A stretch of DNA of 44,691 bases from Lachnospiraceae bacterium (GTDB lineage: Bacteria > Bacillota > Clostridia > Lachnospirales > Lachnospiraceae). This document shows, one piece after another, positions 5,398-20,407 of the stretch. The DNA lies in NCBI GenBank assembly GCA_017551665.1, contig JAFZLB010000099.1, positions 1-44,691 of the forward strand, in the 5' to 3' direction. Position numbers and translations under genes: made by a program. Under the pieces are notes generated by a model, which searched no databases, was not told the origin of the DNA, and saw only the letters and a program-made list of their open reading frames with translations. Every line of letters begins with the position of its first letter. The stretch's first letter is position 1.

Positions 5398-5405
5398 GAG
5401 CAAGC

Positions 5406-6470: not shown

Positions 6471-6488
6471 AGAATGTAAGGAGTAACA

Positions 6489-6833
6489 ATGGCACGTTTT
6501 TCCTACACGGGACAACGAAAAAGCAGAATACCGCACATCCCCGCGGTCCTGATCTATCTTCTGGTCTGGGTGCTGATCCTCGGGATCTTTCTGTTCGGCA
6601 TCCGCTCCTTCAGCGGCTATACCGGCGAAAAGCAGCGGGAGTCCCTGGAACACGCCCTGCAAAGGGGCATTGCTTCCTGCTACGCGATTGAGGGCATTTA
6701 TCCGCCGGATTTGGAATACCTCGAGGAACACTACGGCCTGAACTATGACAAAGAGCTCTTCTTCGTGGACTATCATCCGGTGGCCTCGAACCTGTATCCC
6801 GACTTCACGATTCTGGACAGGAGGACACCCTGA
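6489..6833 (+). CDS. Small pilin-like membrane protein
   Basis: 114 residues with a single membrane helix (about 18-42) after a basic N-terminus. An extracytoplasmic tail contains ASCYAIEGIYPPDLEYLEEH, which reads like the helix-to-sheet region of GspG-type pseudopilins. There is no Gly-x4-Glu prepilin cleavage site, so it would stay membrane-anchored rather than be processed. TAAGGAG lies upstream of the ATG. The stop codon overlaps the next start by one base (TGATG). The function is not known; its place in the GspF operon suggests a minor pilus or platform component. Confidence 0.75.
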   Translation: MARFSYTGQRKSRIPHIPAVLIYLLVWVLILGIFLFGIRSFSGYTGEKQRESLEHALQRGIASCYAIEGIYPPDLEYLEEHYGLNYDKELFFVDYHPVASNLYPDFTILDRRTP

Positions 6834-7336
6834 TGCGCACGAAACGGGACGAGCGGCACATCATTGACATAATCTTCGTGCTGGCGCTCTTTGCGCTGTT
6901 CGCAATTGCGTCCGTGCTGCTGATTGCCATCGGCGTCAGCGTGTACCGGCAGGGGGCGGAGGCCATGGGCGATAACAGCACGGTGCGTACTTCTTATGCC
7001 TACGTTTCGGAGAAAATCCGCCGCGCGGACGCGGAAGGCGCCGTGGAATGCGGCAGTGTCGGAGAATCCGATGCTTTGTTATTAAGTTATGAAATTAACG
7101 GTATTTCGTACACGACAACGCTTTATGTGTACGAGAACATGCTGACGGAGCTGGTGGCCAGAAGCGGCTTAAGCTTTCCGCCCTCGGCGGGACAGCCCGT
7201 GGCGGAGCTGGAAAAGCTGAAATGCCAGCAGGTGTCGGAGGATCTGCTGAAGATCACACTCATTGAGACGGGCGGCGAGGAGCGCAGTCTTTACGCGCAC
7301 ATTCGCAGCAATCCGTCCGCCGGAGAGGGAGAATAA
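6833..7336 (+). CDS. DUF4860-like single-pass protein
   Basis: 167 residues: a charged start (MRTKRDERHI), one long membrane helix (about 12-38) and an extracytoplasmic domain of alternating strands, including TSYAYVSEKIRRAD and LLLSYEINGISYTTTLYVYE. I recognise the pattern as DUF4860, found in Lachnospiraceae pilin-like operons; this is from memory. It lacks a prepilin peptidase site. It overlaps the previous gene by one base and ends 6 nt before the next. A role as minor pilin or scaffold is inferred only from context. Confidence 0.72.
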   Translation: MRTKRDERHIIDIIFVLALFALFAIASVLLIAIGVSVYRQGAEAMGDNSTVRTSYAYVSEKIRRADAEGAVECGSVGESDALLLSYEINGISYTTTLYVYENMLTELVARSGLSFPPSAGQPVAELEKLKCQQVSEDLLKITLIETGGEERSLYAHIRSNPSAGEGE

Positions 7337-7342
7337 GGACAG

Positions 7343-7825
7343 ATGCGGTTTCGCAGAACAAGCGGCGGCAAAAGCGGATTGTTTTTACTGGAGATGACAC
7401 TGGTCGTGTTTTTCTTCGCGCTGACCTCTGCCGTCTATGTGCGCGTCTTTGCCTCCGCGCAGCGGATCGGCCGCGAATCCAAGACCCTGACGGAAGCGAC
7501 GCTCATCGCCCAGAACCTCGCGGAAGCCTGGTACGCCGCCGGCGGTGAACTTACCGAAACCGCGGAACGCTTTGCGCTGTGTGACGCGGAGGATGAACTC
7601 CTCACGCTGTATTATGACAGCACCTGGAAGGCCCTGCCCGCGGACCGTCTGGCCGCGGCCTCTTACCTCGCATACATCCGGCAGCAGCCCGCTTCCGGCG
7701 AAGACGCCGGCAAGGGAGAACTCCGGACCGCGGAACTGAAGGTCACCTCGGTACAGGGCGATGTGGTCTACGAACTGCCGCTCGTCTGTTATCCCGAAGC
7801 ACATACAAAGGAGGGAGAACGATGA
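7343..7825 (+). CDS. Type IV pilin-like (pseudopilin) protein
   Basis: 160 residues with the one convincing prepilin signal in the operon. After a basic leader (MRFRRTSGGKSG) comes Gly12 followed by LFLLEMTLVVFFFALTSA, which places Glu at position +5 after the predicted cleavage. The hydrophobic stretch would be the pilus core helix. It would need a prepilin peptidase (PilD-like) encoded outside the window. It overlaps the next gene by 4 nt (ATGA), so the two are translationally coupled. Confidence 0.78.
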   Translation: MRFRRTSGGKSGLFLLEMTLVVFFFALTSAVYVRVFASAQRIGRESKTLTEATLIAQNLAEAWYAAGGELTETAERFALCDAEDELLTLYYDSTWKALPADRLAAASYLAYIRQQPASGEDAGKGELRTAELKVTSVQGDVVYELPLVCYPEAHTKEGER

Positions 7826-8190
7826 GACAGCGGCGCGGTTATCAGCTTCATGTCGGCACGGCCTCCATCCTGCTCGTCTTTCTGACGCTCTGCCTTTCTT
7901 CCTTTGCCGTGCTCACGCTCGTGAACGCCAACGCGGACAAGCGCTTAAGCGATAAACTCGCCGCCCGCACAAAGGCGTACTACGAAGCGGTCTCCGAAGC
8001 GGAACGTTTTATCGGGGAACAGTCGGCATCCGGCGAAAGTGCCGGCAAAGACTTCTACTTTGACGAAAACCAGTACCTGCGCGTCAGCGTCGAACACGCC
8101 GGCGGCACCGTCCAAATCACGGAATACCGCGTCTTCACGGACGAAAGGGAAATGATCTTCGACGAAAATCCCTTCAAGGTAACGCGATAG
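7822..8190 (+). CDS. Small single-pass protein, last gene of the pilin-like operon
   Basis: 122 residues. A basic N-terminus is followed by a membrane helix (about 14-36) and a polar tail with LVNANADKRLSDKLAARTKA and a short beta-rich end. It resembles PilX-type minor pilin helpers in layout only; there is no recognisable domain. It overlaps the previous gene by 4 nt. Its stop codon lies 3 bases from the convergent hsdR stop, leaving no room for a terminator between the operon and the defence island. Confidence 0.7.
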   Translation: MRQRRGYQLHVGTASILLVFLTLCLSSFAVLTLVNANADKRLSDKLAARTKAYYEAVSEAERFIGEQSASGESAGKDFYFDENQYLRVSVEHAGGTVQITEYRVFTDEREMIFDENPFKVTR

Positions 8191-8193
8191 CGT

Positions 8194-11100
8194 CTACGCG
8201 GCCAGCGCGTTTGCGTTGATCCGCTCGATGGTCTGCCGGATGCCCGTCCAGACGGACATGTCCGTAAAGATCTCCACGATGCTGCCCCTGTCCGTAAACG
8301 GCGCCTCCTGCAAAACGGATAAGTCTTTCATCATACCGTTACGGACAATGAATTCCACGATCTGATTCACAAAATAGATCTGACGGCTGTCCAGCGCGGT
8401 TTCGTCAAGATAGGCCGCAAAGGCTTCCTTGGCCGCTCTCATATCCAGACCGACAATCTCACGGACAAATTCTCCCAGAGGCTTTTCACCAAAGCTTGCG
8501 TGATAGTCCTCTTCCGTCCCGGCCTCCGACCAGAGGATGGTCTCCAGTTCCCGCACATCCTCACTGTTCAGGGGGATGTTGGTACGCAGCTTCGTAATGG
8601 CCGTCCTGTCCTGATGCTCCCGGACATAGAAGGCCGCCTTTTCCTTATAGTTTTTCAGATCGTCGTTTTCCAGTTCCGACGCGTGGATTTCCATGTTGAG
8701 GATATCGTCCTTAAAGTCGGTATCATACCTGCGGTACGCCACCGGCAGGTATTTCATCAGATCACGCAGGTTTTCGCGGATATGCTCAAACTCATGGATG
8801 CCCGCCCCCTCCAGATAGTCTGTGTGAAGAATACGGTTCAGCAGATCGGCCTGTGCACGGATTTCCGGGATATTGGCCACACCCGCGATTCCGTCCACGC
8901 GCCGGATCAGATCATGCTGCGCTCTTGTGTACTTCTTCCCCGCCAGATACGCGAGTTCGATGCCGTACAGCAGCGCATCAAAACGAACCGCGCTCACATC
9001 ATCCGGCGAAGGTAGGATCAGCGGTGCCAGCTCTTCCTTCACGACAAGCGTGTCTTCATAAGTCAAAGCCTGATAATTCTCCGGATTCGCGTACAGATCA
9101 ACATACTTGATGTGCTGCCGGACGGCGAAATTTTCCCGGTCAAGCTCCCGGACTTTTTCGCTCATCTCTTCCACGAGCGTCTGCCGGAACGCCGTCAGTT
9201 CCTCTGTCTGATACGCAAGATCCTGCAGCTTCCAGGCCATCTCGAATTTCAGGCTGAAAATCGCGCTCTGCAGCGCTGTCGTGTTGGCACCCGCTCTTCC
9301 GCTGTTCATGCGGAAGAAACGGAAGTTGCCGCAGAAATCGAAGATATAGAAAAACTTTTTGTCCTCTCCGTCCAAAAGCCCCTCGCAAAGCCTTGTCCCG
9401 CGACCGATCATCTGCCAGAACTTGGCCTTGCTGAACACCTTTTTGAAAAAAACCAGGTTCAGAATCTCCGGAATATCAATGCCGGTATCCAGCATATCCA
9501 CAGAGATCGCGATCTGCGGCAGCTTCTTCGCTTCCGAAAACTCGTCGATCGCACTCTGCGCATATTCAATGTAATTGTCTATCACCTTCACGTATCCGTT
9601 CAGATGCGGAAATTCCTCGTTGAACACCTCAAAGATCTTTTCCGCGTGGGCGTGGTTTTTGGCGAAGATAATGGTTTTCCCGATCTTCTGTCCGTAATCC
9701 ACCTTCAGGCCTTCCGACAGCACCGCCCGCAGCACCTTCCGGATGGTATCCTTGTTGAACAGCCATTTGTTCAGTGCCGCCGATTCGATTTTTTCCGGAA
9801 ACGCGCCGTTCTCGTCGGAAAAGGTTCTTTCGTATTCTTCCTTTTCCTCCTCGGAAAGGTCTTCATATACGATGCCCTCTTCGATGAATTTGACCTCCGA
9901 TTCCACCGAGCGGAAGTCCACCAAAAAGCCGTCCTTCACTGCCTGCGCCAGTTCATAACCGTAGGTCGGCACGCCCTGTTCCAGTTCAAATACATCATAA
10001 GTGTTCTTGTCCACCTCATCCTTCGGCGTCGCCGTCAGTCCGATGAGCGGCGCGTCAAACCAGTGAAAGATGTTCTGGTATTTCCTGTAAATGGAACGGT
10101 GCGCCTCGTCACAGATCACAAGATCAAAATGTCCCGTCGTGAACAGCTTCCCCTCTTCATCCCTGACGGTATCGATGCAGTGCATCATGGTCTGGTAGGT
10201 GGAAAAGATGACACGCGCATTCACATCCGCTTTTTTCTCACAAAGATTGGCGGACGAGACCTTCTCGCCGAGAAGATTCGTAAAGCTGCGCTTGGCCTGC
10301 GTCACAAGCGCTGTCCTGTCCGCCAGGAACAGCACGTTTTTGATCCAGCCGTTCTTCATCAGAACATCCATAAGCGCGATCACGGTGCGCGTCTTACCGG
10401 AGCCTGTTGCCATGACGATCAGCGCCTTCCTGCGGTTTTTCTCATCCAGCGAAGCACAGACCGCCTTGATGGCCGCTTCCTGATAATAGCGTCCGGCGAT
10501 CACGCGATCCACCTCTATGAATTTCAGACCGGAACGCGTCCCCCGCAGATTAAACCATTTCTCCAAATCACGCTTTGCATAAACGGAAGCCACCTTCCGC
10601 TCCGGATACTGCCCGTCGATGATGCGCGTCTCAAATCCGTTCGTCAGGAAGATCACCGGACGCCGCCCGTGGATGCCTTCCAGCAAATCCGCGTACAGCT
10701 TTGCCTGCTGTCTTCCCTTTTCCACACTGACGCAGGTGCGCTTCGCCTCGACCACCGCAAGCGCCCTGCCGTCCGTTCCGTACAGCACATAATCCGCGTA
10801 TCCGACACCGGCACTGTTCGGCATTCCCTCCAGGGGCACCTCGTTAATCCAGTCCGCACCTTCCGTCCAGCCCGCGTCCGCCAGCATGGAATCAATGTAA
10901 ATCTTTCTGGTATTGTATTCGCTCTGCTCCAGCGGCTTTTCGACATAGTTCTGCTGCTGTCTGTCGCGTCGTTTGCTGAGTTCTTCCTTTAAAGCCTTGT
11001 TTTCCGCAATCAGCGCCTCCAGAGACAGCAGGCTGTCCACAACTTCGGATTGCTGCTGCTGAATAAACGCCTCCCGCTCCTCCGGCTCTTCTTCCAGCCC

Positions 11101-11532
11101 CGGTGTTCTTCCGGGGAGCGTCTCATCATATTCGCGCGGCTCATATTCTTTCGCGTAGCAGCAGGCAATGAAATCAAAAAAGATGAACAGATTGTACAGA
11201 CAAAGCTTCGCCTGTTCCTCCGTCATCTTCTTCCGGTTATCATGTGCGCTGCGATTGCCGAGCTTGCGGATCAGATCCATCCGCCGCCAGATATCATTTC
11301 CGACTATATCACGAAATTCCTCCGCCCCCATCAGACTGTACAGATTGTCCTGATACGGTAAAGACAAGGCCTTGTCCACCGAATACATCCAGCGGACGGC
11401 AAACTCCATCGACCGCCTGCACTGAAACACACAGGCCGCCGCGTCAATCGGCAGCATCAGCTCCGCCGCGATCGCAACATCGGCAAACCCGGCAAACTGC
11501 GGATCGGTTGAGAGGAAGTCAAAGTTGGTCAT
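8194..11532 (-). CDS. hsdR: Type I restriction enzyme R subunit (EcoEI-like)
   Basis: 1112 residues. Order of parts: an N-terminal DUF4145/HEPN-like helical domain (about 20-125), a coiled segment, and a PD-(D/E)xK nuclease of the HSDR_N type (YADYVL about 244, VVEAKRT about 262). Next is a superfamily 2 helicase with Walker A ATGSGKTR (about 376), DEAH (about 472) and GRGTRL (about 712), and then the EcoEI_R-type C-terminal region. It translocates DNA and cuts at a distance when HsdM and HsdS find unmodified sites. All key motifs are intact. The start has no good ribosome binding site; an in-frame stop lies just upstream, and a 13-codon ORF with a strong GGAGAG precedes it. Confidence 0.95.
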   Translation of the reverse strand: MTNFDFLSTDPQFAGFADVAIAAELMLPIDAAACVFQCRRSMEFAVRWMYSVDKALSLPYQDNLYSLMGAEEFRDIVGNDIWRRMDLIRKLGNRSAHDNRKKMTEEQAKLCLYNLFIFFDFIACCYAKEYEPREYDETLPGRTPGLEEEPEEREAFIQQQQSEVVDSLLSLEALIAENKALKEELSKRRDRQQQNYVEKPLEQSEYNTRKIYIDSMLADAGWTEGADWINEVPLEGMPNSAGVGYADYVLYGTDGRALAVVEAKRTCVSVEKGRQQAKLYADLLEGIHGRRPVIFLTNGFETRIIDGQYPERKVASVYAKRDLEKWFNLRGTRSGLKFIEVDRVIAGRYYQEAAIKAVCASLDEKNRRKALIVMATGSGKTRTVIALMDVLMKNGWIKNVLFLADRTALVTQAKRSFTNLLGEKVSSANLCEKKADVNARVIFSTYQTMMHCIDTVRDEEGKLFTTGHFDLVICDEAHRSIYRKYQNIFHWFDAPLIGLTATPKDEVDKNTYDVFELEQGVPTYGYELAQAVKDGFLVDFRSVESEVKFIEEGIVYEDLSEEEKEEYERTFSDENGAFPEKIESAALNKWLFNKDTIRKVLRAVLSEGLKVDYGQKIGKTIIFAKNHAHAEKIFEVFNEEFPHLNGYVKVIDNYIEYAQSAIDEFSEAKKLPQIAISVDMLDTGIDIPEILNLVFFKKVFSKAKFWQMIGRGTRLCEGLLDGEDKKFFYIFDFCGNFRFFRMNSGRAGANTTALQSAIFSLKFEMAWKLQDLAYQTEELTAFRQTLVEEMSEKVRELDRENFAVRQHIKYVDLYANPENYQALTYEDTLVVKEELAPLILPSPDDVSAVRFDALLYGIELAYLAGKKYTRAQHDLIRRVDGIAGVANIPEIRAQADLLNRILHTDYLEGAGIHEFEHIRENLRDLMKYLPVAYRRYDTDFKDDILNMEIHASELENDDLKNYKEKAAFYVREHQDRTAITKLRTNIPLNSEDVRELETILWSEAGTEEDYHASFGEKPLGEFVREIVGLDMRAAKEAFAAYLDETALDSRQIYFVNQIVEFIVRNGMMKDLSVLQEAPFTDRGSIVEIFTDMSVWTGIRQTIERINANALAA

Positions 11533-11552
11533 GTCTGCTTTTCACATACGCC

Positions 11553-11594
11553 TTACGTGCGCCCGTCGCAAGATGTCTTTGTTTTCTCGTTCAT
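11553..11594 (-). CDS. Possible 13-residue leader peptide before hsdR
   Basis: A short frame MNEKTKTSCDGRT with GGAGAG three bases before its ATG, ending 20 nt before hsdR. It has a far better ribosome site than hsdR itself, so it may load ribosomes for hsdR. It could equally be chance. Confidence 0.3.
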   Translation of the reverse strand: MNEKTKTSCDGRT

Positions 11595-11604
11595 TATCTC
11601 TCCT

Positions 11605-11639
11605 GCATCTTGATATGCCAATCTGGAACATCAAGATGC
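11605..11639. repeat. Inverted repeat upstream of hsdR
   Basis: GCATCTTGAT (11605-11614) and ATCAAGATGC (11630-11639) form a perfect 10-bp inverted repeat with a 15-base spacer, just ahead of the leader ORF. It could be an operator or an RNA hairpin; there is no T run for termination. Confidence 0.5.
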
Positions 11640-11686
11640 GTCAGCGTTTTCGAATCTCTCATGTGCGTCACGCGCATATCGCCAGG

Positions 11687-12157
11687 TCAGAAGCCGCCCT
11701 GCCGATATGCGCGTGCAATCACATTGGATGGCTCATAGAACGCGCCACAATCATAATCATCCAGTTTCTCGCATATTTCATCGTTATAAACACGTATCAT
11801 GGCATCAACATAATCTTCTTCCGGTGTCATGGTGTCCAACACCAGACGCTGATACACCTTTCCCATTTCCAACTCTGTCGGCACATACTCCGTAAACCCA
11901 GGCGTGACATCCAGAATATGATATTCTCCTTCTGTCAGATGATAGTCTCTGATCCAGTCATTCTCGACCTGCAGCGGATTCAGTGCATGCAACACATCCG
12001 CCAGACTGATCAGCCTGCGCCACTCTTCCGGTTCGATTTGATTGATGACATCCCGATTGTGAAGAGACAGCTTCCTGGCAAGTCGTTCCACCATGTAACA
12101 CACAAAATACAGGTCATCTTCCGTAATCATCTCATCTTTATCAAAAACACTTCTCAT
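11687..12157 (-). CDS. Partner protein of the first DUF3990 module, DUF3791-like N-terminus
   Basis: 156 residues from ATG 12157, chosen because GGAGGGG lies eight bases upstream and the ATG overlaps the stop of the DUF3990 gene by 4 nt. The N-terminal half (FVCYMVERLARKLSL, later DVLHALNP) has a faint match to the DUF3791 protein at 16495-16710 (FVIYMIHACADRW, EILHTQG), so it may be a longer DUF3791 relative. The acidic C-terminal half (DYVDAMIRVYNDEICEKL) is unfamiliar. Being encoded directly behind a putative ADP-ribosyltransferase toxin, it is a candidate antitoxin; this is inference from position. Confidence 0.7.
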   Translation of the reverse strand: MRSVFDKDEMITEDDLYFVCYMVERLARKLSLHNRDVINQIEPEEWRRLISLADVLHALNPLQVENDWIRDYHLTEGEYHILDVTPGFTEYVPTELEMGKVYQRLVLDTMTPEEDYVDAMIRVYNDEICEKLDDYDCGAFYEPSNVIARAYRQGGF

Positions 12158-12606
12158 AAGGAATACCCCTCCAGATAGCGAATTGTCTGTAGTGCATTCT
12201 CCGTGCAAAAAGCAATCTGATGTGTCGGATACTTAAATTTTACCAAAAGCCAGAACGCTTCCCGTGAAATCAGACCGCGCAAAAAATCCTCCACATAATC
12301 CCATACCTGATCATCCGCCATCGGACCTTCCACGATATCAAATGGATGCGCGTTCCCGTTCCGGCACGCAGCGATAAAATCCAGCCACTCGTCCGTCATG
12401 TTCGGAAACTGCTTTACATTCAATGCAGGATTCTCCGAATATTCATATACGTTTACGACATGACCCTCTCTCTTGGTTCTCGCCCACTTCTGTGCCTGTT
12501 TCTCTTTCTCCGTGCAATAAAAACCATATCCAAAGTCCTTGGCAAATCCGTTCGTCAGAATCTTTGGCGTTTCAACGATTACATTGCTTCCGTGATACAG
12601 TCTCAT
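12154..12606 (-). CDS. DUF3990 protein, ADP-ribosyltransferase-like putative toxin (module 1)
   Basis: 150 residues. The start (MRLYHGS) is supported by GGAAGG nine bases upstream; a -10-like TATAAT lies at 12647-12642 without a clear -35. The pattern LYHGS, then GFAKDFGYGFYCTE, then QKWA is typical of DUF3990. I place that family with the ADP-ribosyltransferase fold: His of YHGS and Tyr of GFY would be the first two residues of an H-Y-E type site. It shares this pattern with the gene at 16019-16498 but is clearly diverged from it. Probable role: toxin of a two-gene module with the downstream gene. Activity and target are unknown. Confidence 0.75.
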   Translation of the reverse strand: MRLYHGSNVIVETPKILTNGFAKDFGYGFYCTEKEKQAQKWARTKREGHVVNVYEYSENPALNVKQFPNMTDEWLDFIAACRNGNAHPFDIVEGPMADDQVWDYVEDFLRGLISREAFWLLVKFKYPTHQIAFCTENALQTIRYLEGYSL

Positions 12607-12655
12607 TCTTCGCATCCTTCCGGATTGTTTTCTCAATTATCATTATACAGCATTC

Positions 12656-12758
12656 GTGGTCGCGTGGCGTTGTAACTTCACCCAAAGTACTCCTGCATCA
12701 GGCTGTCAAAGAGCAGCTGTGTTTCGTCCAAAGCCTTCTGAACCGCAACTTTTGATTT
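12656..12758 (-). repeat. Duplicated hsdS 3' end, downstream copy
   Basis: This 103-bp block is nearly identical to 12885-12988. Reading the minus strand it encodes the last residues of HsdS (KALDETQLLFDSLMQEYFG, stop) and continues past the stop. Differences are a few substitutions and one single-base gap. Confidence 0.85.
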
Positions 12759-12884
12759 TCGCGAAGCACACGAGCCACGCACATCTGCAACGGAAGGCGC
12801 GTCGGGAGCTTGCTCACGTAAGCGCCCGTACGTTTGCAGATGTATGCGGCGACAGCCGCGAACGAGGGAAGCACCGCTTCCCGA
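12759..12884. other. Structured spacer between the two hsdS-tail copies
   Basis: 126 bases with no plausible gene but three nested or adjacent inverted repeats. These are ACATCTGCAA (12781-12790) with TTGCAGATGT (12834-12843), GCGGC/GCCGC (12846-12859), and GGGAAGC/GCTTCCC (12866-12882). An open frame crosses it into the downstream hsdS tail but looks like read-through, not a protein. Confidence 0.5.
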
Positions 12885-12988
12885 GTGGTCGCGTGGCGAT
12901 GCAACTTTCATCCAAAGTACTCCTGCATCAGACTGTCAAAGAGCAGCTGTGTTTCGTCCAAAGCCTTCTGAACCGCAACTTTTGATTT
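12885..12988 (-). repeat. Duplicated hsdS 3' end, copy inside hsdS
   Basis: The in-gene copy of the repeat: the terminal 81 bases of hsdS plus about 23 bases beyond the stop. The period relative to the other copy is 229-230 bases. Confidence 0.85.
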
Positions 12989-14038
12989 GTCGACTTGTTT
13001 GACAAATTTGACAAAACCGTCCTGTAATTCCCTCGGAGGACAAATTACATCAAACTCTTTTATTTGATTCAAATGTAAATCTGGCACCCCGATCCCTTTT
13101 ATCCTGGCATCTGCCTGGTGTTTTATCGAAGGCATGGCCATCTGAATAGCGAGGAATCGCGAGTTAATTTCTTCATGCTTTGGCTTGATCAGGCAAACAC
13201 TAACATATAAACAAAACTCTCTTTTTGTATCTACATAAGCTGGGATACCGTATGTGGCACCGACTTTCGTATAAAGCACATCCCCCTTTTCAGGATGTGT
13301 ACTCTTTATCATCTTCTGATATGCTTCCTCTGAAACATATTTGCAGTCAGTGAAATCCACAATGCCTTTATTGATGTTAACCACTGACAAAAACGGATAG
13401 CCAGTTTCTGTATACATCGGCTTTGCATGCACACCGTCCGATACTTTTACAGCAAGATCTCCAAGCCGCCTCATACTGTATTTACAGGTGCCTTTCTCTG
13501 GGTCTCCGAAGAGCTCGACAAATCGGGCTTTGATGAGGGTGTCTAACCCCGACAGTTCTTTCTTTCGATCACGCATTATAGTCTCCAACGAATCCATTAT
13601 TACCATGCATTCACTTTGGCGACTCTCAGACACTTCCGGAACCATAATCTCTTCTAACACATTTTTACCAATCGCCTTAAATGTGCTCCCAGTCCCTTTC
13701 CTGTTGAGTTCCTCATTTTTCGCCTTTAATAATCGAAAGACAAACGTTCTTTTTGCCTCATCCTTAATAGAAATCGCTGCCAATCCACGCCCTATGCAGC
13801 ACTCTTCTTTAGCATAGTTCAGCGCTCCAATAGGTGCTCGTACAGAAATAAGGATATCACCAGCCCTCGCAATCTTTTTAGGCGCATTGCACCACACCCT
13901 TTCTTCCGGATATACATCACCGAAATCTGCATTGCCTTGAAAAAAAGGCAAACCATCTCGATCTTCGTTATAACTCGAAGATTCAGGTGACTGCCCCATG
14001 GTAATATCTGCGATATCCTTTAAAGCTTTATAATTCAT
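12908..14038 (-). CDS. hsdS: Type I restriction-modification specificity subunit
   Basis: 376 residues with two target-recognition domains, each followed by a helical spacer. TRD1 runs about 1-120 (ADITMGQSPESSSYN, GDILISVRAPIG) with conserved region 1 up to about 175 (LDTLIKARFVELFGDP). TRD2 runs about 190-340 (LAVKVSDGVHAKPMYTETG, KGDVLYTKVGATYG) with a C-terminal coil ending LLFDSLMQEYFG. HsdS selects the two half-sites of the recognition sequence for both methylation and cutting. It is intact. GGGGA precedes the start by four bases. It is separated from hsdM by about 3.7 kb of toxin-antitoxin-type genes, and its last 81 bases are repeated downstream. Confidence 0.94.
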   Translation of the reverse strand: MNYKALKDIADITMGQSPESSSYNEDRDGLPFFQGNADFGDVYPEERVWCNAPKKIARAGDILISVRAPIGALNYAKEECCIGRGLAAISIKDEAKRTFVFRLLKAKNEELNRKGTGSTFKAIGKNVLEEIMVPEVSESRQSECMVIMDSLETIMRDRKKELSGLDTLIKARFVELFGDPEKGTCKYSMRRLGDLAVKVSDGVHAKPMYTETGYPFLSVVNINKGIVDFTDCKYVSEEAYQKMIKSTHPEKGDVLYTKVGATYGIPAYVDTKREFCLYVSVCLIKPKHEEINSRFLAIQMAMPSIKHQADARIKGIGVPDLHLNQIKEFDVICPPRELQDGFVKFVKQVDKSKVAVQKALDETQLLFDSLMQEYFG

Positions 14039-14076
14039 AGCATCCCCACAAATGTTAATTTGCCAATCTCAAGCTG

Positions 14077-14979
14077 CTAATCTGCGCACAACGCAGTAAG
14101 GTAATTGATAAAAGCACAGCATGTCACCAACATAAACTTTGCTTCTTCAAATGTCGATGACGGACTACCAATATCGCCTGCATGTCTTATCCCGTTTGCG
14201 TCAGATGTATAACCATATAATTTTTCAAACGCTGACTGCAATCCCTTATGCATGTCAACACCGTTTTCCTCCATCTTCTTCAACACTTTTCCGAGCGTTG
14301 CTTCTTTGCCTTTCGCTCCGGTGATTATGCATCCCATTGCTTCAACCGCGCTTATACTCTCTTTGATTGAGTTTTCGTAATCCGGATTATCCCTGTCAGC
14401 AAGCAGTTTATTAGCCTTGGAAATATGGTCATATACAGGTTTGTGCTTTGTGTCCAACGTTTCGCGAATGGCATCAATTTCATACGAATCACTGATTTTC
14501 ACGATGATCTGATTAACGAACCTGTATCCAATATACTCTCTTTTGAATACACGATTTGCCTGTTCATAGATGGATGTTTCTCTATACTTTCTGCTGTATT
14601 CATCATAGTATTCACAACCTTTTTCCAATCTTAGATATTTATCCCAATACTGAATCAGTGCTTCTATCAATGTCAATACATCATCATATTCATCCTCCAG
14701 TATCGTCTTATGGATTGCGGCTACGACCATATCATCATCATAAATCTCCCTCTCATCAATGCATACAGAATATATCGTTCCCATCACAAATCTGATAAAG
14801 CTTTGCACATACGGTCTGCTGTAATATAAATCCCCTCCGTAAACTGCGCTATAAAAACTGCTAATCATGTTTTGTAATTGAACCCGCGTCCGCTTGTCAA
14901 ATTCCGTCAATTGTATTTCCCTATTCTCAGGTTTGATACCATTACGATCAGAAAAACCGCCTCGTCTACTTACTTTCAT
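14077..14979 (-). CDS. AbiJ-like HEPN-domain protein, putative abortive-infection or guard nuclease
   Basis: 300 residues from ATG 14979, chosen for GGAGAG six bases upstream; a GTG 27 bases earlier is less good. The N-terminal part (FSDRNGI, then EIQLTEFDKRTRVQLQNMI) resembles the AbiJ-NTD4 type. The C-terminal 120 residues contain KESISAVEAMGCIITG and LYGYTSDANGIRHAGD, the pattern of AbiJ-type HEPN domains, many of which are RNases; the Arg-His pair of GIRHA is the likely active-site region. It lies 38 nt before hsdS. By analogy with PrrC at the E. coli prr locus, it might act when restriction is blocked; that is inference. Confidence 0.7.
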   Translation of the reverse strand: MKVSRRGGFSDRNGIKPENREIQLTEFDKRTRVQLQNMISSFYSAVYGGDLYYSRPYVQSFIRFVMGTIYSVCIDEREIYDDDMVVAAIHKTILEDEYDDVLTLIEALIQYWDKYLRLEKGCEYYDEYSRKYRETSIYEQANRVFKREYIGYRFVNQIIVKISDSYEIDAIRETLDTKHKPVYDHISKANKLLADRDNPDYENSIKESISAVEAMGCIITGAKGKEATLGKVLKKMEENGVDMHKGLQSAFEKLYGYTSDANGIRHAGDIGSPSSTFEEAKFMLVTCCAFINYLTALCAD

Positions 14980-15031
14980 TACGTTCTCTCCAGATTCTGC
15001 GCGCACGCTCTTTCCTTACTTTTCCCATTTC

Positions 15032-15229
15032 AGATGACTACATTTTGTAGTCATCTCGGTCAGTCATAAACGCCGTCCCTGTTTAATCGGTGACGCTTTG
15101 TCACCGATTGATCCCTTCCCAACTGATCAGTTTTGTGAGCAGTTAGCTTGACTGCCCCCTGCCACCTCGTACAATGATCCCCCAAAAGAGACGATTTTCT
15201 ACCGTGTACTTTTATCGGAAATCCCGATA
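15032..15229. repeat. Cluster of four short-loop hairpins
   Basis: Four inverted repeats lie in the intergenic DNA ahead of the HEPN gene. They are AGATGACTAC/GTAGTCATCT around a 5-nt loop (15032-15056); AATCGGTGAC/GTCACCGATT, 5-nt loop (15085-15109); AACTGATCA/TGAGCAGTT, one mismatch, 6-nt loop (15121-15144); and TATCGG/CCGATA, 5-nt loop (15213-15229). The stems differ in sequence but share size. None has a T run. No gene is apparent in 14980-15255 apart from these. Confidence 0.6.
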
Positions 15230-15255
15230 GAAGTTTCTCCAAGCTCTCTTATTCG

Positions 15256-15508
15256 TCACCTTCTTCCATCTTCCATTTTTTCAAGCAATTTTGTGTCGAA
15301 GGTTGTCGCAAATTTTGCGACCACCGCTTCTCCTTCCAATTCCTCACGTTTTGCAGAAGTATTTGTATCAAGTTCTCCTTCACTATCGATTTTGCTGACC
15401 TCGGCAAAATCGTCAGGCACACAATGTCCACTGTTTTCACAAAATAGCGGAAGCAGAACCTTTCGGTCCGGCGAAGATAATAACCTCCGGCATTTTCTCA
15501 GTTTGCAT
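15256..15508 (-). pseudogene. Decayed P-loop (zeta-toxin-like) gene
   Basis: From ATG 15508 the frame reads MQTEKMPEVIIFAGPKGSAS and stops after a few more codons. The opening matches the 'IIFAGPNGSGKS' start of zeta-type toxin kinases, but the P-loop Lys-Ser is lost. A single frame shift after this point opens a further frame (from LFCENSG through VPDDFAEVSKID) to the TGA at 15256, far shorter than a zeta kinase. The ATG overlaps the end of the small gene at 15498-15683 by 11 nt, the usual antitoxin-toxin arrangement. I read it as a truncated, inactive remnant; the family call rests on one motif. Confidence 0.45.
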
Positions 15509-15683
15509 ATTGTCTCCTTCCGTCAGGGAACTCAAGATATGCCCTTCTCTCCGTAGTGTCATATTTTGCAATCGGTTCGCCCTTTATGCGCCGCTCCTCG
15601 TTGTCAATGCGGATTGCCTCCTTGAATCGTTCCGTTAGTTCCTCATCGGTAACACCACACATAGAATCTAATTCAATTGTCAT
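15498..15683 (-). CDS. Small antitoxin-like protein
   Basis: 61 residues with GGAGAG five bases before the ATG. The protein is acidic with a helical first half (DEELTERFKEAIRIDNEERR) followed by KGEPIAKYDTTERRAYLEFP and a C-terminal DGRRQY. This pattern is what I recall for small proteins encoded just ahead of zeta-type kinases in Clostridia. With the toxin frame broken, it may be an orphan antitoxin or simply not yet decayed. Confidence 0.55.
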   Translation of the reverse strand: MTIELDSMCGVTDEELTERFKEAIRIDNEERRIKGEPIAKYDTTERRAYLEFPDGRRQYAN

Positions 15684-15782
15684 AACCTCTCTCCTCTCTC
15701 ATCTCAGCCAAAGAGGAAACTTATTCGTCAAAATTGTGTAAACCAGGTACCTGCACCAGCTCCTGTGCCGTCTGTGCACGGC

Positions 15783-16022
15783 TCATTGCACACCTTCAAA
15801 CAACTCTGCCTCGGTTTCGGTCAAGATTTCCACCAGCACCTTGTAATCCAAATACTGTATGCCTTCTGTGCCGCTATGAATCATTTCTGCCAACCGGCTA
15901 TGATAAAAAACATCCATAGCCGTTTCATACGACAGACCTTTGCTTTCCGCCAAATGACCGATAATACGCTCCTCTAAATTCTCCTGATACACTTTTTCTA
16001 ATGTATTCTCATCCATCATCAT
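15783..16022 (-). CDS. Small third protein of the second DUF3990 module
   Basis: 79 residues, acidic and mostly helical (ENLEERIIGHLAESKGLSYE, then FYHSRLAEMIH). No domain recognised with certainty. The start is ambiguous because three ATG codons follow one another. The first (16022) overlaps the DUF3990 stop by 4 nt. The third (16016) has the best distance (7 nt) from GAGG. Its position behind a putative toxin makes it a candidate second antitoxin. Confidence 0.65.
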   Translation of the reverse strand: MMMDENTLEKVYQENLEERIIGHLAESKGLSYETAMDVFYHSRLAEMIHSGTEGIQYLDYKVLVEILTETEAELFEGVQ

Positions 16023-16498
16023 ACCTCATAAAACGAATCAAATGTCAGCAATGCGTCAATGGCATTTTGCGTGATAAATGCAGTCTGATCATACGACGGA
16101 TAAACCTTGATCTCTCTCAATGCACGTTCCTTGTCCCATATCCCTGAGTGATACATATCCACAACCCGAAAGACCTTATCGTTTGCCACTTTCCCGGAAA
16201 TCAGATCATAGTTCAGATATTCAATGCCACCGTCACGGCAGTCACAGACAAAATCAATCCAAGAACTCATGTCATCTCCGAAAGCCAGATGTCTCCAGCC
16301 TTCTATCTCCACTTTCATTTGATAAACATTTACGATTCCCTGCGTGTGTCCGCAAATATTCGCTTTTCTTCTCGCCCAGCGTTCTGCCTGTTCCTTCACG
16401 CTTGTCACATAAAAGCCCTTTCCAAAATCCAAAGCATGAAAAGAATGCAAAACATCCGGATTTCTTACTTCTTCAATGATGCCATGATACACGATCAT
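16019..16498 (-). CDS. DUF3990 protein, ADP-ribosyltransferase-like putative toxin (module 2)
   Basis: 159 residues. It starts MIVYHGIIEEV, then FHALDFGKGFYVTS and QAERWARRKA, the same YHG / GFY / WA pattern as the protein at 12154-12606 with otherwise limited similarity. The C-terminal SYDQTAFITQNAIDAL also parallels THQIAFCTENALQTI there. Both neighbours overlap it by 4 nt (ATGA), so the three genes are one translationally coupled operon. Likely a toxin held by one or both small neighbours; target unknown. Confidence 0.75.
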   Translation of the reverse strand: MIVYHGIIEEVRNPDVLHSFHALDFGKGFYVTSVKEQAERWARRKANICGHTQGIVNVYQMKVEIEGWRHLAFGDDMSSWIDFVCDCRDGGIEYLNYDLISGKVANDKVFRVVDMYHSGIWDKERALREIKVYPSYDQTAFITQNAIDALLTFDSFYEV

Positions 16499-16710
16499 AC
16501 CTGTACCCCTCTCACATGCAAATACTCTGTGATGTCATTTACAATAAATGTCGTACCCTGCGTATGCAGGATCTCATAGTGCGGGACCAAAAAGCCGCTG
16601 ATACAATCTGACTGCTGCAATATGCGATAAACCGCGGACGGTGTCTGGTTCCACCGATCCGCACAGGCATGAATCATGTAAATCACGAATGAAAAAACAT
16701 CCTTGCTCAT
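16495..16710 (-). CDS. DUF3791 protein, putative antitoxin
   Basis: 71 residues, beginning SKDVFSFVIYMIHACADRW and ending with HYEILHTQGTTFIVNDITEY, the length and pattern of DUF3791 proteins. These are commonly encoded next to DUF3990, which suggests an antitoxin role. AAAGGA lies six bases before the ATG, and a promoter lies at 16766-16794. It is the first gene of the three-gene module. Confidence 0.7.
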   Translation of the reverse strand: MSKDVFSFVIYMIHACADRWNQTPSAVYRILQQSDCISGFLVPHYEILHTQGTTFIVNDITEYLHVRGVQV

Positions 16711-16765
16711 TGTTTATCCTTTCTCCCCGCAATACAACTTGCGTCATTCCTTATCTTTCACAATA

Positions 16766-16794
16766 ATTATAATTCAAAGAGCAGTTATCTCCAA
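16766..16794 (-). promoter_or_regulatory. Promoter of the DUF3791-DUF3990 operon
   Basis: On the minus strand TTGGAG (16794-16789), a 17-base spacer and a perfect TATAAT (16771-16766), about 55 nt upstream of the DUF3791 start. It gives this module its own transcription inside the hsd locus. Confidence 0.65.
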
Positions 16795-16858
16795 CCACGT
16801 TTCGGGCGTTTCCTGCGTTTCCTGCGGGTCCTATGGCATGTATCAGGGGTTGGATGTG

Positions 16859-17227
16859 TTAATCCACAGAAACACCGGCATCTTCCAGTTCTTCTCTGAT
16901 CCTTTTTTGCAACTGTGGAACATCTTCCTTGACGGTGTCCCAAATGCGATCATCTTTCACCTTCTCGTATCCATGCGCAATCACATTCCGCATCCCGTAG
17001 ATTTGATGCCATGAAACATCTTTGATCTGCTCCTTGCACTCATCTGACAGCACGTTTACTGCTTCGCCTATCTGAAACAGATTCATCTTGATTGCGTCCC
17101 TGTAATCGATATCCCCGAGAAACGCATCCAAGCTGTCTCCAAATCGTTGAATACAATCTGCTATACGATCACAATGATCTAAAATGCGCAACATGCGGTC
17201 AACATCTCTTTCCTGAAACTCAACCAT
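16859..17227 (-). CDS. hepT: HepT-like HEPN toxin (DUF86)
   Basis: 122 residues of all-helical HEPN fold. The active-site motif is intact: RNVIAHGY (about 79-86), matching Rx4HxY of HepT RNases. An earlier ILDHCDRIADCIQRFG and FQIGEAVNVLSDE are typical of the family. HepT is kept inactive when the partner MntA adenylylates its tyrosine. It overlaps mntA by 8 nt, the standard order here being antitoxin first. Complete and probably functional. Confidence 0.9.
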   Translation of the reverse strand: MVEFQERDVDRMLRILDHCDRIADCIQRFGDSLDAFLGDIDYRDAIKMNLFQIGEAVNVLSDECKEQIKDVSWHQIYGMRNVIAHGYEKVKDDRIWDTVKEDVPQLQKRIREELEDAGVSVD

Positions 17228-17708
17228 AAAGCAGTACCTTATCCCTTTCTATGTGACTCCGAAAACGTCGTCCCGCGCGAGAATTATCGCTTAGCATTGC
17301 CTCGGACTCCACAAGATCAACTTTCTTTCCGATACAGTCCTCCATCAACTCCTGCAATTCCAAAAATGTCATCATCCCTTTACTCTCATCACCTTCTATC
17401 AACAGGTCAACGTCACTGGACGAGTCTGCTTCGCCTCTTGCGTAGGAACCAAAAAGATAGACTTTTTTGATGCCATATCTCTTTACAACAGGTAGCAGAA
17501 GCGTCCTGATCGCATCGATGGAAGGTATTTCTTCCGCTCCTCGGACATCCTTGCGGATCAGACTTTTGATATATCCCTGGCGATTGTTTACCTCGTCCAA
17601 ACGCAAAAGGATGTCCGCATCGGTCGTCAGATTTAGCTTCAGAAGAACCGATCGGGTATGTGTCTTATCATATTTTGCCTGTGCTTTTAATTGCGCTGCC
17701 GATGTCAT
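17220..17708 (-). CDS. mntA: MntA-like nucleotidyltransferase antitoxin with N-terminal DNA-binding-like extension
   Basis: 162 residues. The C-terminal 100 residues are a minimal nucleotidyltransferase: YLFGSYARGEADSSSDVDLL (about 84-103) supplies the GSx10DxD motif that binds nucleotide and metal. The first 60 residues are an extra domain (AKYDKTHTRSVLLKLNLTTD, then NRQGYIKSLIRKD). This looks like the ribbon-helix-helix type small proteins of Lachnospiraceae. A fused DNA-binding domain would let the antitoxin repress its own promoter, and a perfect palindrome does overlap that promoter. GGAGGG lies just before the ATG. The nucleotidyltransferase role is well supported; the RHH call is moderate. 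Confidence 0.88.
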   Translation of the reverse strand: MTSAAQLKAQAKYDKTHTRSVLLKLNLTTDADILLRLDEVNNRQGYIKSLIRKDVRGAEEIPSIDAIRTLLLPVVKRYGIKKVYLFGSYARGEADSSSDVDLLIEGDESKGMMTFLELQELMEDCIGKKVDLVESEAMLSDNSRAGRRFRSHIERDKVLLYG

Positions 17709-17733
17709 ACATCCCTCCTGATTGTTATTTGTA

Positions 17734-17767
17734 ATATGAGTATATACTCATATCTCGAGGATGTCAA
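17734..17767 (-). promoter_or_regulatory. Promoter with palindromic operator for mntA-hepT
   Basis: On the minus strand TTGACA (17767-17762), exactly 17 bases, then TATACT (17744-17739). The perfect 20-bp palindrome ATATGAGTATATACTCATAT (17734-17753) covers the -10 box and part of the spacer. A repressor bound there would block RNA polymerase. Confidence 0.85.
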
Positions 17768-17785
17768 TTTCATTCCCAAAGTCCC

Positions 17786-19285
17786 TCACCCCAACAACTC
17801 CTTCAACGCCTGAAGCTCCTTCTGCGCCTCCTTCTCCAACTCCTCAATCTTTGCGATGATCTCGCTCGTCGGCGGGTACTCCACGGGTACATACTCCGTC
17901 TTTTTGTATTTGTTGATGGAAAGATCATAGGCGTTGTCTATGATCTCCTGCACCGGCACGAAAAAGCTTTGCTCCGTGCGCTTCCGCGCTTCCTCCTGCT
18001 CCGGCGCGTGAAAGCGGGCGATGATGTCAGGAATATCATTCTCCTTTGTTTCGCTCCGCTTATCGTCCAGGCTGAAGCCGTCCGCCTTCATGTCATAGAA
18101 CCACACCCGGTCCGTTCCGCCGTGTCCGGTCTTTGTGAAAACGAGTATGGCTGTCGAAACGCCGGCATACGGTTTGAACACACCGGAGGGCATGGAAATC
18201 ACGGCCTCCAGGCGGTGTTCTTCGATCAGCGTCTTGCGGATGGCCTGATGTGCCTTGGAGGAACCGAACAACACACCGTCCGGAACAATGCAGGCGCAAC
18301 GGCCACCGGTGCGTAGCATACGCAAAAACAGCGCAAGAAACAGCAGCTCTGTTTTCTTTGTCTTGCATACCTTCAGCAGATCCGGCGAAACGGAGTCATA
18401 ATCCAGACTGCCCTTAAAGGGCGGATTCGCCAGAATCAGACTGTACTTTCCCGTATCCGGATTCTGTTCCGAAAGGCTGTCGCGGTATTCGATAAACGGA
18501 TTCTCCACGCCGTGCGTCATCATGTTCATCGCGCCAATCCGCAGCATCGTCCGGTCCATATCGAATCCGTGGAACATGTGGTTCATATAGTGTTCCTGAT
18601 TCTTCCGGTCGAAAAACACCTCTTCCTTGCGCTTTTCCTTCAGATATTCGCTCACCGCGACGAGAAAGCCGGAGGTGCCGCAGGCGGGATCACAGACAAT
18701 TTCTTCCGCGCCGGGCTCCATCAGTTCCACCATCATGCGGATGATATGTCTGGGTGTGCGGAACTGGCCGTTGACACCCGCTGTGGAAATCTTGGAAAGC
18801 AGATACTCGTAAACATCACCGCGGGTGTCCGCCGTTTTTGTCTGCGCCATCTGCTCATACATACCGTCCATGGCCGAAACTATCCGCTCTAACATCAGCG
18901 GCGTCGGTACTTTGAAAATGGCATCCCCCATGTATTTGGAATAGGCGCTTTCCTTGTTTCCGTGTAGATTTTTGATAAAGGGGAACACCCAGTCCTGCAT
19001 GATGCTGTACATTTTTTCCGCCGGAAGATCGTGGAACACGCTCCATTTCAGCTGTGTGCCGTCCACCTTGCGCTCCCCGATCTGCAGTTCCTTCGCGAAG
19101 ATGCTTTCATACGAAAGCCCCAGCATGGACGCCTCTTTCGCACGCAGATTATCGCTGCCGTCCAGATCATGTATGAACATCAGATAGGTCATCTGTTCAA
19201 TGACATCCAGCGGGTTGGTCAGCCCTCCCGTCCAAAAGATTTCCCAAAGACTGTCAATTTTGCTTTTCAGTTCCCCTGTGATCAT
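17786..19285 (-). CDS. hsdM: Type I restriction-modification methyltransferase subunit
   Basis: 499 residues. The N-terminal helical HsdM_N domain (about 1-140) contains TNPLDVIEQMTYLMFIHDL. The N6-adenine methylase core has motif I DPACGTSGFL (about 203-212) and motif IV NPPF (about 288). A C-terminal coiled end follows. It methylates adenine at the site chosen by HsdS, using S-adenosylmethionine. AAGGAG nine bases before the ATG overlaps the last codons of the upstream fic gene, so fic and hsdM are coupled. The mntA promoter begins 19 bases beyond its stop codon. Confidence 0.95.
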   Translation of the reverse strand: MITGELKSKIDSLWEIFWTGGLTNPLDVIEQMTYLMFIHDLDGSDNLRAKEASMLGLSYESIFAKELQIGERKVDGTQLKWSVFHDLPAEKMYSIMQDWVFPFIKNLHGNKESAYSKYMGDAIFKVPTPLMLERIVSAMDGMYEQMAQTKTADTRGDVYEYLLSKISTAGVNGQFRTPRHIIRMMVELMEPGAEEIVCDPACGTSGFLVAVSEYLKEKRKEEVFFDRKNQEHYMNHMFHGFDMDRTMLRIGAMNMMTHGVENPFIEYRDSLSEQNPDTGKYSLILANPPFKGSLDYDSVSPDLLKVCKTKKTELLFLALFLRMLRTGGRCACIVPDGVLFGSSKAHQAIRKTLIEEHRLEAVISMPSGVFKPYAGVSTAILVFTKTGHGGTDRVWFYDMKADGFSLDDKRSETKENDIPDIIARFHAPEQEEARKRTEQSFFVPVQEIIDNAYDLSINKYKKTEYVPVEYPPTSEIIAKIEELEKEAQKELQALKELLG

Positions 19286-19291
19286 TGTCCG

Positions 19292-20353
19292 TCACTCCTT
19301 TTCCCCGTTCCATACATACCATGTGTATCTGCCTCCGCCGATTTTCAACACCTCACCGCTGTCCATCATTTCCTTCAGCGCACGCTCCACCGTGATCTTG
19401 CTGATATCCGGGCATTTTTCCATGATCTCCGCCTTTGTCTGCCTGCCGATCGTCCGCCGGATAACTTCCCGGATTCTACCTGTTTTCGGCAGGCTTCCGT
19501 CCGCAAGCAATTCCATCCGCGAAGACAACTCGCGATATGCCGCCGTCGTCACGCCAAGCATATAGCGGACAAAGGGCAGATCATCATTTTTTCCTTCATG
19601 CCAACCCGCGGAGCTCTCCTCCAATGCCTCATAATAGCTTTCTTTGCTGTCCGCAATCTGCTTTTCGATACTGATATACTTGCCGGCAAGAAAGCCCGCC
19701 CGATACAGCAAAAGCAGTGTCAACAGGCGGCTCATTCTTCCGTTCCCGTCGTGAAATGGATGAATGCAAAGAAAATCCAGCACAAACATCGGCATCAGAA
19801 CCAGCGCATCGATGTCATCGTCACGCAATGCGGTATGAAAAGCGTCGCAAAGCCTGTCCATAGCTTCCGGCGTTTCCCATGCCGCCACCGGCGTAAAACG
19901 GACACGTTCCGTCCCGTCCACGCCTTTTTCCGCAATCACATTATCCGTATGCTTAAACGCGCCTCCGCTTTCCGTACCGCTGAATTTATACAAATCCCGG
20001 TGCAGCTGCAGGATCATCCCCGGTTTTACAGGAATAAAGTCATAGCTTTCATGTATGGTTGCCAGAACATCCCGATACCCCGCAATCTCCCGCTCGCTCC
20101 TGTTCTTCGGCGTCGTTTTTTCACGCACAAGATTTTTCAGACGCTCGTGCGTCGTCACAATCCCCTCGATACGGTTAGACGCCTCGGTACTCTGTATCTT
20201 CGCGATCTCAAGAAGCTCCGCCAGGAAATCAGCCTGCGTTTCAATAAACAGCGCCTGCCTTCCCTTGTGTTCATGAATTGTGGAAAGAAAGCTGACGATC
20301 TCCGGCGTCAGCAGCTTCTCATATCTTTCCTTGTACGAAAAAATCCGTTTCAT
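19292..20353 (-). CDS. fic: Fic family protein (AMPylator type, class II inhibitory motif)
   Basis: 353 residues from ATG 20353 (MKRIFSYKERY), preferred over the upstream in-frame ATG cluster because GTGAGG lies directly before it. The Fic core motif HPFHDGNGRMSR is intact (about 202-213). An N-terminal SNRIEG (about 55-60) fits the (S/T)xxxE(G/N) inhibitory helix, so the enzyme would be self-inhibited. The C-terminal 80 residues form a winged-helix-like segment (AEIMEKCPDISKITVERALK). Fic proteins transfer AMP to target proteins. It is the first gene of the hsdM transcript and may autoregulate through its winged helix; the target is unknown. Confidence 0.92.
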   Translation of the reverse strand: MKRIFSYKERYEKLLTPEIVSFLSTIHEHKGRQALFIETQADFLAELLEIAKIQSTEASNRIEGIVTTHERLKNLVREKTTPKNRSEREIAGYRDVLATIHESYDFIPVKPGMILQLHRDLYKFSGTESGGAFKHTDNVIAEKGVDGTERVRFTPVAAWETPEAMDRLCDAFHTALRDDDIDALVLMPMFVLDFLCIHPFHDGNGRMSRLLTLLLLYRAGFLAGKYISIEKQIADSKESYYEALEESSAGWHEGKNDDLPFVRYMLGVTTAAYRELSSRMELLADGSLPKTGRIREVIRRTIGRQTKAEIMEKCPDISKITVERALKEMMDSGEVLKIGGGRYTWYVWNGEKE

Positions 20354-20407
20354 GTCCCTCACTTCCGCGCTCAACATCATCATTTGCATTCAAAATGATA
20401 TACTTAA

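Follow-up and report, generated by a model that had tools for sequence, protein, structure and literature searches.

Defence modules in two slots of a type I restriction-modification operon from Lachnospiraceae and a candidate loading site at the 3' end of hsdS

Several toxin-antitoxin (TA) and defence-like modules lie between the genes of a restriction-modification locus in a Lachnospiraceae bacterium, raising the question of what holds them there. The locus was studied in a stretch of 44,691 nucleotides (contig JAFZLB010000099.1 of assembly GCA_017551665.1), hereafter the window. It is a type I restriction-modification operon with the order fic, hsdM, slot 1, hsdS, slot 2, hsdR. A first-pass annotation of the letters alone had proposed layered guarding, in which the modules are wired to restriction and freed as toxins when restriction is blocked or lost, by a logic like that of PrrC; we regard this as highly unlikely. 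In related bacteria, such passengers instead seem to be swapped in and out at one fixed DNA site where hsdS ends, and not to be wired as a layered booby trap. The reading that we favour, with moderate confidence and from sequence comparison, is a cassette-loading type I chassis like the pneumococcal tvr locus, in which defence and TA modules would land in the operon and slot 2 would be loaded at the hsdS 3' site. The observation made in the first-pass annotation is confirmed and has a wider precedent than the annotation knew; the site in the hsdS tail is the new and more interesting point.

Two slots with changing cargo

The best 80 of 569 confirmed hsdR loci served as relatives. In 50 of the 80, hsdM and hsdR were both in view on one strand; the other 30 did not have both under the limits used. 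Variable cargo was found in these 50 at the same two places, between hsdM and hsdS (slot 1) and between hsdS and hsdR (slot 2), and it differed from locus to locus. When open reading frames (ORFs) of at least 70 amino acids were counted, 115 of 123 cargo ORFs were co-oriented with the hsd genes, compared with 288 of 494 ORFs in the flanks. The random scatter in related genomes that the first-pass annotation had wanted checked was therefore not seen. Of the 37 relatives with a complete hsdM and 1.5 kb of sequence upstream of it, 29 had fic within three ORFs on that side.

The cargo itself turned over. When 132 cargo proteins, nine of them from the window, were clustered, they fell into 87 clusters, 60 of which were singletons. 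PADLOC matches among the co-oriented cargo (114 of the 115 ORFs; one L081 gene was left out) included, within the commonest 25 of 193 families, PDC-S34 and PDC-S13 four times each and PDC-S23, PDC-S47 and HEC-01A twice each. At 3.7 kb, slot 1 of the window was unusually full: the longest other gap between hsdM and hsdS was 1.7 kb (L076), counted among loci with hsdS and with L081 set aside. L029 had no intact hsdS ORF. In L081, a 734-amino-acid gene with PTS_EIIC and MCP-signal domains was seen in a 4.3-kb gap between the end of hsdM and hsdS, and the pairing of the two genes is doubted; the locus was kept in the locus and cargo ORF counts, where it supplied four of the eight antisense cargo ORFs.

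The conserved site and tail of hsdS

A conserved site, GTCGACAAATCAAAAGTT, lay within the 3' end of hsdS (window 12977..12994, minus strand) and was followed by a tail of about 22 codons. The HsdS C-terminus of relatives often read Q(V/T)DKSK(V/L) and continued into a tail such as AVQKALDEAQLLFDSLMQKYFG or AIQQSLDKLETLKKALMQKYFG. Conservation reached the synonymous level. When the six site codons (codons 5-10) were compared with the codon usage of each locus's own hsdS in 63 loci, with loci that had the amino acid as denominators, the preferred codons were GTC in 32 of 38 (z 12.2), GAC in 48 of 51 (z 11.6), AAA in 60 of 60 (z 5.6), TCA in 46 of 54 (z 10.7), AAA in 58 of 60 (z 5.1) and GTT in 22 of 24 (z 4.8). 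Outside these six, z peaked at 8.3 upstream (codon 2, three codons away) and at 6.9 within the tail. The exact 16-mer GACAAATCAAAAGTTG (12976-12991 in the window) occurred 16 times in 12 of 299 family genomes, 14 times at hsdS 3' ends, one of which (L131) was at a contig end beside hsdR; the backwards control of this 16-mer gave no occurrence in the genomes listed. The two occurrences outside hsdS, in L122 and L125, were set aside as chance matches. About 20 hsdS copies fitted the tail profile only up to position 10-13, just past the site, and then diverged. Inverted copies of the site, as expected of an hsdS inversion system, were sought and none was convincing among the few matches with at most one mismatch. 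Among the literature matches listed for the 12-mer core of the site, nothing was on this topic by title.

Three side observations touch the site. The hsdR start, when read as its reverse complement (GAAATCAAAGTTGGTCAT; 11515-11532 of the window, and also in relatives), resembled the hsdS site (AAATCAAAAGTTG) with modest codon conservation, a likeness that would bound slot 2 by imperfect inverted site copies. A 741-aa ORF of L042 (4891-7116) continued the hsdS frame past the site into other sequence. The viral contig IMGVR_UViG_3300021400_001404 (L120) had hsdR as well as two ends of hsdS that bear direct sites and tails; either phages or prophages may carry the site, or host DNA may be present in this contig.

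Cargo in slot 2 went together with the tail: it was present behind 46 of 49 tailed hsdS genes and 8 of 20 tail-less ones (69 of the 80 relatives, 11 left out; Fisher P = 4e-6, a value that relatedness may inflate, as weighed below). Tails were also found apart from hsdS. When matches of at least 12 bits were kept and matches to the profile start only were left out, eight tails outside hsdS ORFs (in the window, L010, L024, L043, L046, L050, L067 and L073) lay in slot 2, which made up 77.7 of the 1,377 kb searched. Only three matches were found elsewhere (L002, L029 and L045), all of them ends of hsdS genes whose ORFs were short, cut or broken. The junction tails preceded a further cargo gene. 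Site-like sequence was kept beside them in L046, L067 and the window, in part in L073 and not in the other four, and neither the window nor L067 had a co-oriented cargo ORF of at least 70 amino acids between hsdS and the extra tail. hsdM-tail remnants were tried as a corresponding mark of slot 1 and dropped: the six matches outside hsdM-labelled ORFs were full-length and look like cut or mis-picked hsdM ends.

The tail also varied with the cargo behind it. When the ten pairs of loci with the same first cargo were compared among 43 loci, their tail identity was 0.73, compared with 0.63 for all pairs, and 18 of 5000 shuffles reached this value. For the region before the site the same pairs gave 0.456 compared with 0.474, a value reached in 4066 of 5000 shuffles.

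The window's hsdR was found in 5 of 21 genomes of its own genus, its own included, and the surroundings of three were taken. In L209 (G312) a tail-less hsdS led straight into hsdR, showing an empty slot. L208 (G310) had the order fic, hsdM, two ORFs, hsdS with site and tail, two ORFs and hsdR, with different cargo. In L210 (G305) the hepT frame of an mntA-hepT pair entered a complete site and ended inside the tail, with the break at GTCGACAAATCAAAA and no hsdS frame before it; the tail was followed by a gene best matching the PDC-S23 cargo of L005, a recombinase remnant, another ORF and hsdR. L210 has a distant hsdR (48% identity), and only 1.7 kb of contig precedes mntA; an hsdM or hsdS may lie farther off.

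The window carried a direct repeat of about 104 nucleotides that the first-pass annotation had missed. Copy 1 (12885..12988, minus strand) comprised the hsdS C-terminal tail, the stop codon and 22-23 nucleotides downstream. Copy 2 (12656..12758, minus strand; 57.5 bits to the tail profile) was an hsdS tail remnant before the DUF3990 pair of slot 2; it started inside the site (AAATCAAAAGTTG) and lacked the first bases of it. Between the tails lay a non-coding palindromic segment of 126 nucleotides (12759..12884, minus strand). When the 149-nucleotide stretch 12759-12907 was folded, it gave -71 kcal/mol (z -3.5), and 1 of 200 shuffles was as stable. A multi-copy mobile element behind the repeat was considered and rejected: a 171-base query had no other full copy in the window's own genome, where its sole further match was the 19-base start of the other tail. 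The palindromic segment matched none of the other fetched loci at E 0.01, and no known RNA family was found in the region at the gathering threshold. In the same-genus genome G331, two places matched a 27-bp part of the segment and another one matched 23 bp of it.

Relatives of a 322-amino-acid Phage_integrase gene were found in 13 hsd-bearing stretches among the 133 examined (12 distinct records, since L039 and L132 are apparently the same record and were counted once; L194 was not counted). A pair of like-oriented sites (at most two mismatches) flanked the tyrosine recombinase gene in ten distinct loci; both sites of L130 were on one side of it, and L177 had only one convincing site. In L019 (Agathobaculum butyriciproducens DSM 100391) a second hsdS also lay between the sites, together with the recombinase. 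Between their sites, L051 and L081 had modules of the M13 and M10 families, both of which also occur in the window. No linked tyrosine recombinase was found among the ORFs of the window locus, and a search of the window for a midpoint repeat found the 12-mer core nowhere else, even with one mismatch allowed.

These features suggest a mechanism for the cassette-loading chassis. The type I operon would be a landing place for self-contained defence or TA modules, and slot 2 would most likely be loaded by recombination at the site of about 18 bp in the hsdS 3' end, which would move the cargo in and out. Each passenger would bring a replacement for the last 22 or so hsdS codons together with a stop codon, so that hsdS would be re-ended and not broken. 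Repeated loading would stack passengers, each with an hsdS tail in front. The likely enzyme is the hsdS-linked tyrosine recombinase present in some relatives, which is TvrR-like in setting, and the passengers would act independently of restriction. A bolder version makes the hsdS 3' end an integron-like attachment site and the type I operon of Clostridia a capture-and-express platform for tail-bearing defence cassettes, which could be acquired, piled up and released as circles without loss of restriction specificity; we offer it tentatively, as an idea with less chance of being right than of being wrong.

Core genes and passengers of the window

The source contig (C103) belongs to a 2.57-Mb draft of 118 contigs that is 91.4% complete. 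The whole locus was on the minus strand, in the order fic, hsdM, mntA-hepT, DUF3791-DUF3990 with a 79-amino-acid partner, an antitoxin with a broken zeta-like remnant, AbiJ_NTD4, hsdS, the DUF3990 pair and hsdR. The genes named in the first-pass annotation, their order and their single strand were all borne out. So were its distances of 3.7 kb between hsdM (end 17786) and hsdS (start 14038) and 1.4 kb between hsdS (end 12908) and hsdR (start 11532). The fic gene (19292..20389), the usual upstream member of the chassis, encodes a SoFic-like Fic protein (Pfam Fic 2.4e-15; PADLOC SoFic 9e-39). The methyltransferase subunit gene hsdM (17786..19285) matched N6_Mtase (4e-63), HsdM_N and PADLOC MTase_I (2e-181), the specificity subunit gene hsdS (12908..14038) matched Methylase_S in two stretches (5e-25), and the restriction and translocase subunit gene hsdR (8194..11532) matched ResIII (4.5e-40), SWI2_SNF2, HSDR_N, EcoEI_R_C and PADLOC REase_I (2e-161). 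The domain content is that of a type I system, with HsdM_N and N6_Mtase in HsdM, two target-recognition stretches in HsdS, and a translocase with the type I N-terminal region in HsdR; the hsd reading frames were intact. Beside hsdR on the opposite strand (4321-8190, plus), genes resembling a type II secretion or pilus assembly cluster were recognised by eye.

Slot 1 began with an mntA-like nucleotidyltransferase antitoxin gene (17220..17708; Pfam NTP_transf_2 2e-14 over residues 73-139; PDC-S09 5e-20) and a hepT-like RNase toxin gene (16859..17227; Pfam HepT-like 4e-22). Such adjacent genes are the arrangement of the MntA-HepT type VII TA system by Pfam; the NCBIfam equivalog cut-offs for MntA and HepT were not reached (46.3 and 41.9 bits vs 60). 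The MntA-like protein had about 60 extra residues N-terminal to the nucleotidyltransferase domain, a part that matched no model and that we take to resemble a ribbon-helix-helix. A PDC-M13 module followed, comprising a DUF3791 protein (16495..16710; Pfam 4e-20, PDC-M13A 2e-19), a DUF3990 protein (16019..16498; Pfam 2.7e-41, PDC-M13B 1e-45) and a PDC-M13C-like partner of 79 amino acids (15783..16022; 1.9e-8). DUF3990 is a member of the ADP-ribosyltransferase clan (PMC7955679, in the portion consulted).

A decayed module came next in slot 1, made of a 61-amino-acid antitoxin-like ORF (15498..15683), identified through the neighbour ORF of its relatives, and a truncated P-loop frame after it, for which zeta is presumably the fitting name. 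The 61-amino-acid ORF had a match in 12 of 100 genomes searched, its own included. Its relatives in L191-L193 were followed by an ORF of about 200 amino acids with FAGPNGSGK(S/T), and its relative in L197 by a different protein (not every relative was checked on the correct strand). In the window the frame stopped after a short piece and the P-loop was broken, so the antitoxin/zeta-like remnant of the first-pass annotation stands. The last protein of slot 1 (14077..15006) belongs to the AbiJ_NTD4 and PDC-S32 families (Pfam 1e-23; PDC-S32 7e-86); it had been called a HEPN protein, and no HEPN model match lies behind that name. Slot 2 held a second DUF3990 protein, PDC-M10A (12154..12636; Pfam 5e-50, PDC-M10A 7e-76), and a 173-amino-acid PDC-M10B partner (11687..12208; 1e-68) that had gone unnamed. 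All of these genes were on the minus strand. The component genes of PDC-M10, PDC-M13 and PDC-S32 had side-by-side profile matches in PADLOC, with a weaker match for PDC-S09 (MntA).

Weighing the explanations and likeness to known systems

The modules are inside the operon and on its strand, as layered guarding would have it, and PrrC is a toxic module within a type I locus (EcoprrI). DarTG2 is another toxic module reported within such a locus (PMC12255303, in the text available). However, none of the window ORFs that were run against Pfam and PADLOC matched a PrrC-like anticodon nuclease, and the identity of the cargo was not conserved with hsd, as the 87 clusters show. The TA-like modules bring their own partner genes, and one of them, the zeta-like module, has decayed to its antitoxin-like ORF. 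Relatives of two modules were mostly away from hsd genes among the loci examined. PDC-M10B relatives occurred in 35 of 200 genomes and the window's hsdR in 21 of 200 (own genome counted in both). No hsdM, hsdS or hsdR was found, by profiles that may miss distant types, in 20 of 24 PDC-M10B loci (mostly the best matches among 45 places outside the own genome, some stretches being cut by contig ends) or in five of six AbiJ/PDC-S32 loci. The exceptions were L162, L177, L184 and L187, with hsdS or hsdM nearby, and L179 for AbiJ/PDC-S32; two further PDC-M10B places, outside the 24, were in hsd loci (G025, which is L132, and G162:C163, abutting hsdR). Taken together, the turnover of cargo, the modules' own partners, the decayed module and the relatives elsewhere argue against modules wired to the restriction enzyme, and guarding was dropped as the best reading. 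Promoter-like matches stood before fic, mntA, DUF3791 and hsdR, but a count of 21 compared with 14.9 +- 3.7 in shuffles is weak evidence, and a region scan for terminators gave no signal (8 compared with 10.9 in shuffles).

Passive accumulation is a possible but less probable explanation, in which ordinary homologous recombination brings cargo into tolerant intergenic gaps of a much-exchanged hsd operon, the junction tails are scraps of a decayed second hsdS, and the conserved hsdS ends are simply shared homology. Two hsdS copies are indeed present in L019, L021, L042, L051 and L081. A number of further results favour it or otherwise weigh against loading at the site. The hsdR tree left six independent pairs on supported branches, of which on average 1.6 agreed and 0.2 disagreed with the link between tail and cargo; this was not significant, indicating that relatedness may inflate the Fisher test. 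Eight tail-less hsdS genes had cargo and three tailed ones had none. The junction tails of L024, L050 and L073 were weak (13-15 bits) and several junction tails, some of them degenerate, had no site. Pairs with the same cargo were few and slightly closer in hsdR (0.81 vs 0.78). Slot 1 was filled without any hsdM-tail remnant. Some tail codons were also conserved beyond usage (z up to 6.9), which makes the site different from the tail only by degree, and the 12-mer core was exact in just 36 of 63 loci. Loaded slots had no second site at their hsdR end, so a simple two-site cassette was not seen. The window's own genome, a 91%-complete draft, had no close recombinase (best 36% identity), and the two window tails were 98% identical with a palindrome but no gene between them, which could reflect a recent local duplication. 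On the other side, four findings weigh against passive accumulation: synonymous conservation peaked around the site (z up to 12.2 in codons 5-10, above codon 2 and the tail), breaks and the better-preserved remnants began there, a full site and tail were joined to hepT in L210, and recombinases were flanked by paired direct sites. An assembly artefact, in which a draft contig would fuse pieces that do not belong together or merge repeats close to hsdS, is suggested by the 118 contigs and by the 98% direct repeat beside a strong hairpin; we consider it exceedingly improbable, since this chassis and these kinds of junction recurred in independent genomes and the hsd frames were intact.

If slot 2 is loaded at the hsdS site as we propose, the conserved 3' site and its tail-bearing passengers would provide a mechanism for the embedding of defence genes in type I loci. 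Embedded defence genes serve the discovery of immune systems, and no mechanism of entry into type I loci was found stated in the portions of the literature consulted. The proposal would link guilt-by-embedding to the tvr phase-variation mechanism, supply a simple sequence rule for finding more passengers and caution against treating each toxin embedded in a system as that system's guard.

Among known systems, EcoprrI-PrrC is similar in that a toxic effector gene lies inside a type I locus; it differs in that the scanned window ORFs held no PrrC match and that there is no evidence here of inhibition by the restriction complex. The cargo of the window matches families of the guilt-by-embedding screen of Payne et al. 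2024, from which the PDC families derive (as described in the excerpts of PMC12988326 and PMC12255303); most PDCs are unvalidated for anti-phage activity (PMC12988326, same excerpt). Like those families, the PDC-M10, PDC-M13 and PDC-S32 genes, and more weakly PDC-S09, are embedded in another defence system, so that finding modules of this sort inside a type I locus is not new in kind. Unlike in that screen, a single locus here stacks several unrelated modules, and the consulted part of its literature contains no statement of an hsdS-tail site as loading point. In enteropathogenic Escherichia coli, DarTG2 lies between hsdS and hsdR with RptR, and the authors suggest that this position is a potential recombination hotspot (PMC12255303, in the text available). 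A TA pair between hsdS and hsdR is thus shared with the window, whereas the modules and host are different and the available text reports no tail repeats.

The closest likeness in layout is to pneumococcal tvr (SpnIV). There, TvrR cuts out a circle and reinserts it by way of direct tail-end repeats of hsdS, around a TA pair of phd-doc-like type (PMC6265443, in the part consulted). The pneumococcal locus has hsdM, hsdS, TA genes, a tyrosine recombinase, more hsdS and hsdR, and its direct tail-end repeats of about 70 bp at the hsdS 3' end correspond to the window's direct repeat of about 104 nucleotides. The comparison made here is one of layout. The pneumococcus shuffles pieces coding for target-recognition domains around one TA pair (tvrAT), according to the same part of that source, whereas many unrelated defence genes are passengers here. 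The window has no midpoint repeat, recombinase or spare hsdS; because no recombinase was found in its locus and no close one in its genome, and the midpoint repeat was missing, we refrain from naming it a tvr locus. Its appearance is that of a tvr-type chassis, now locked.

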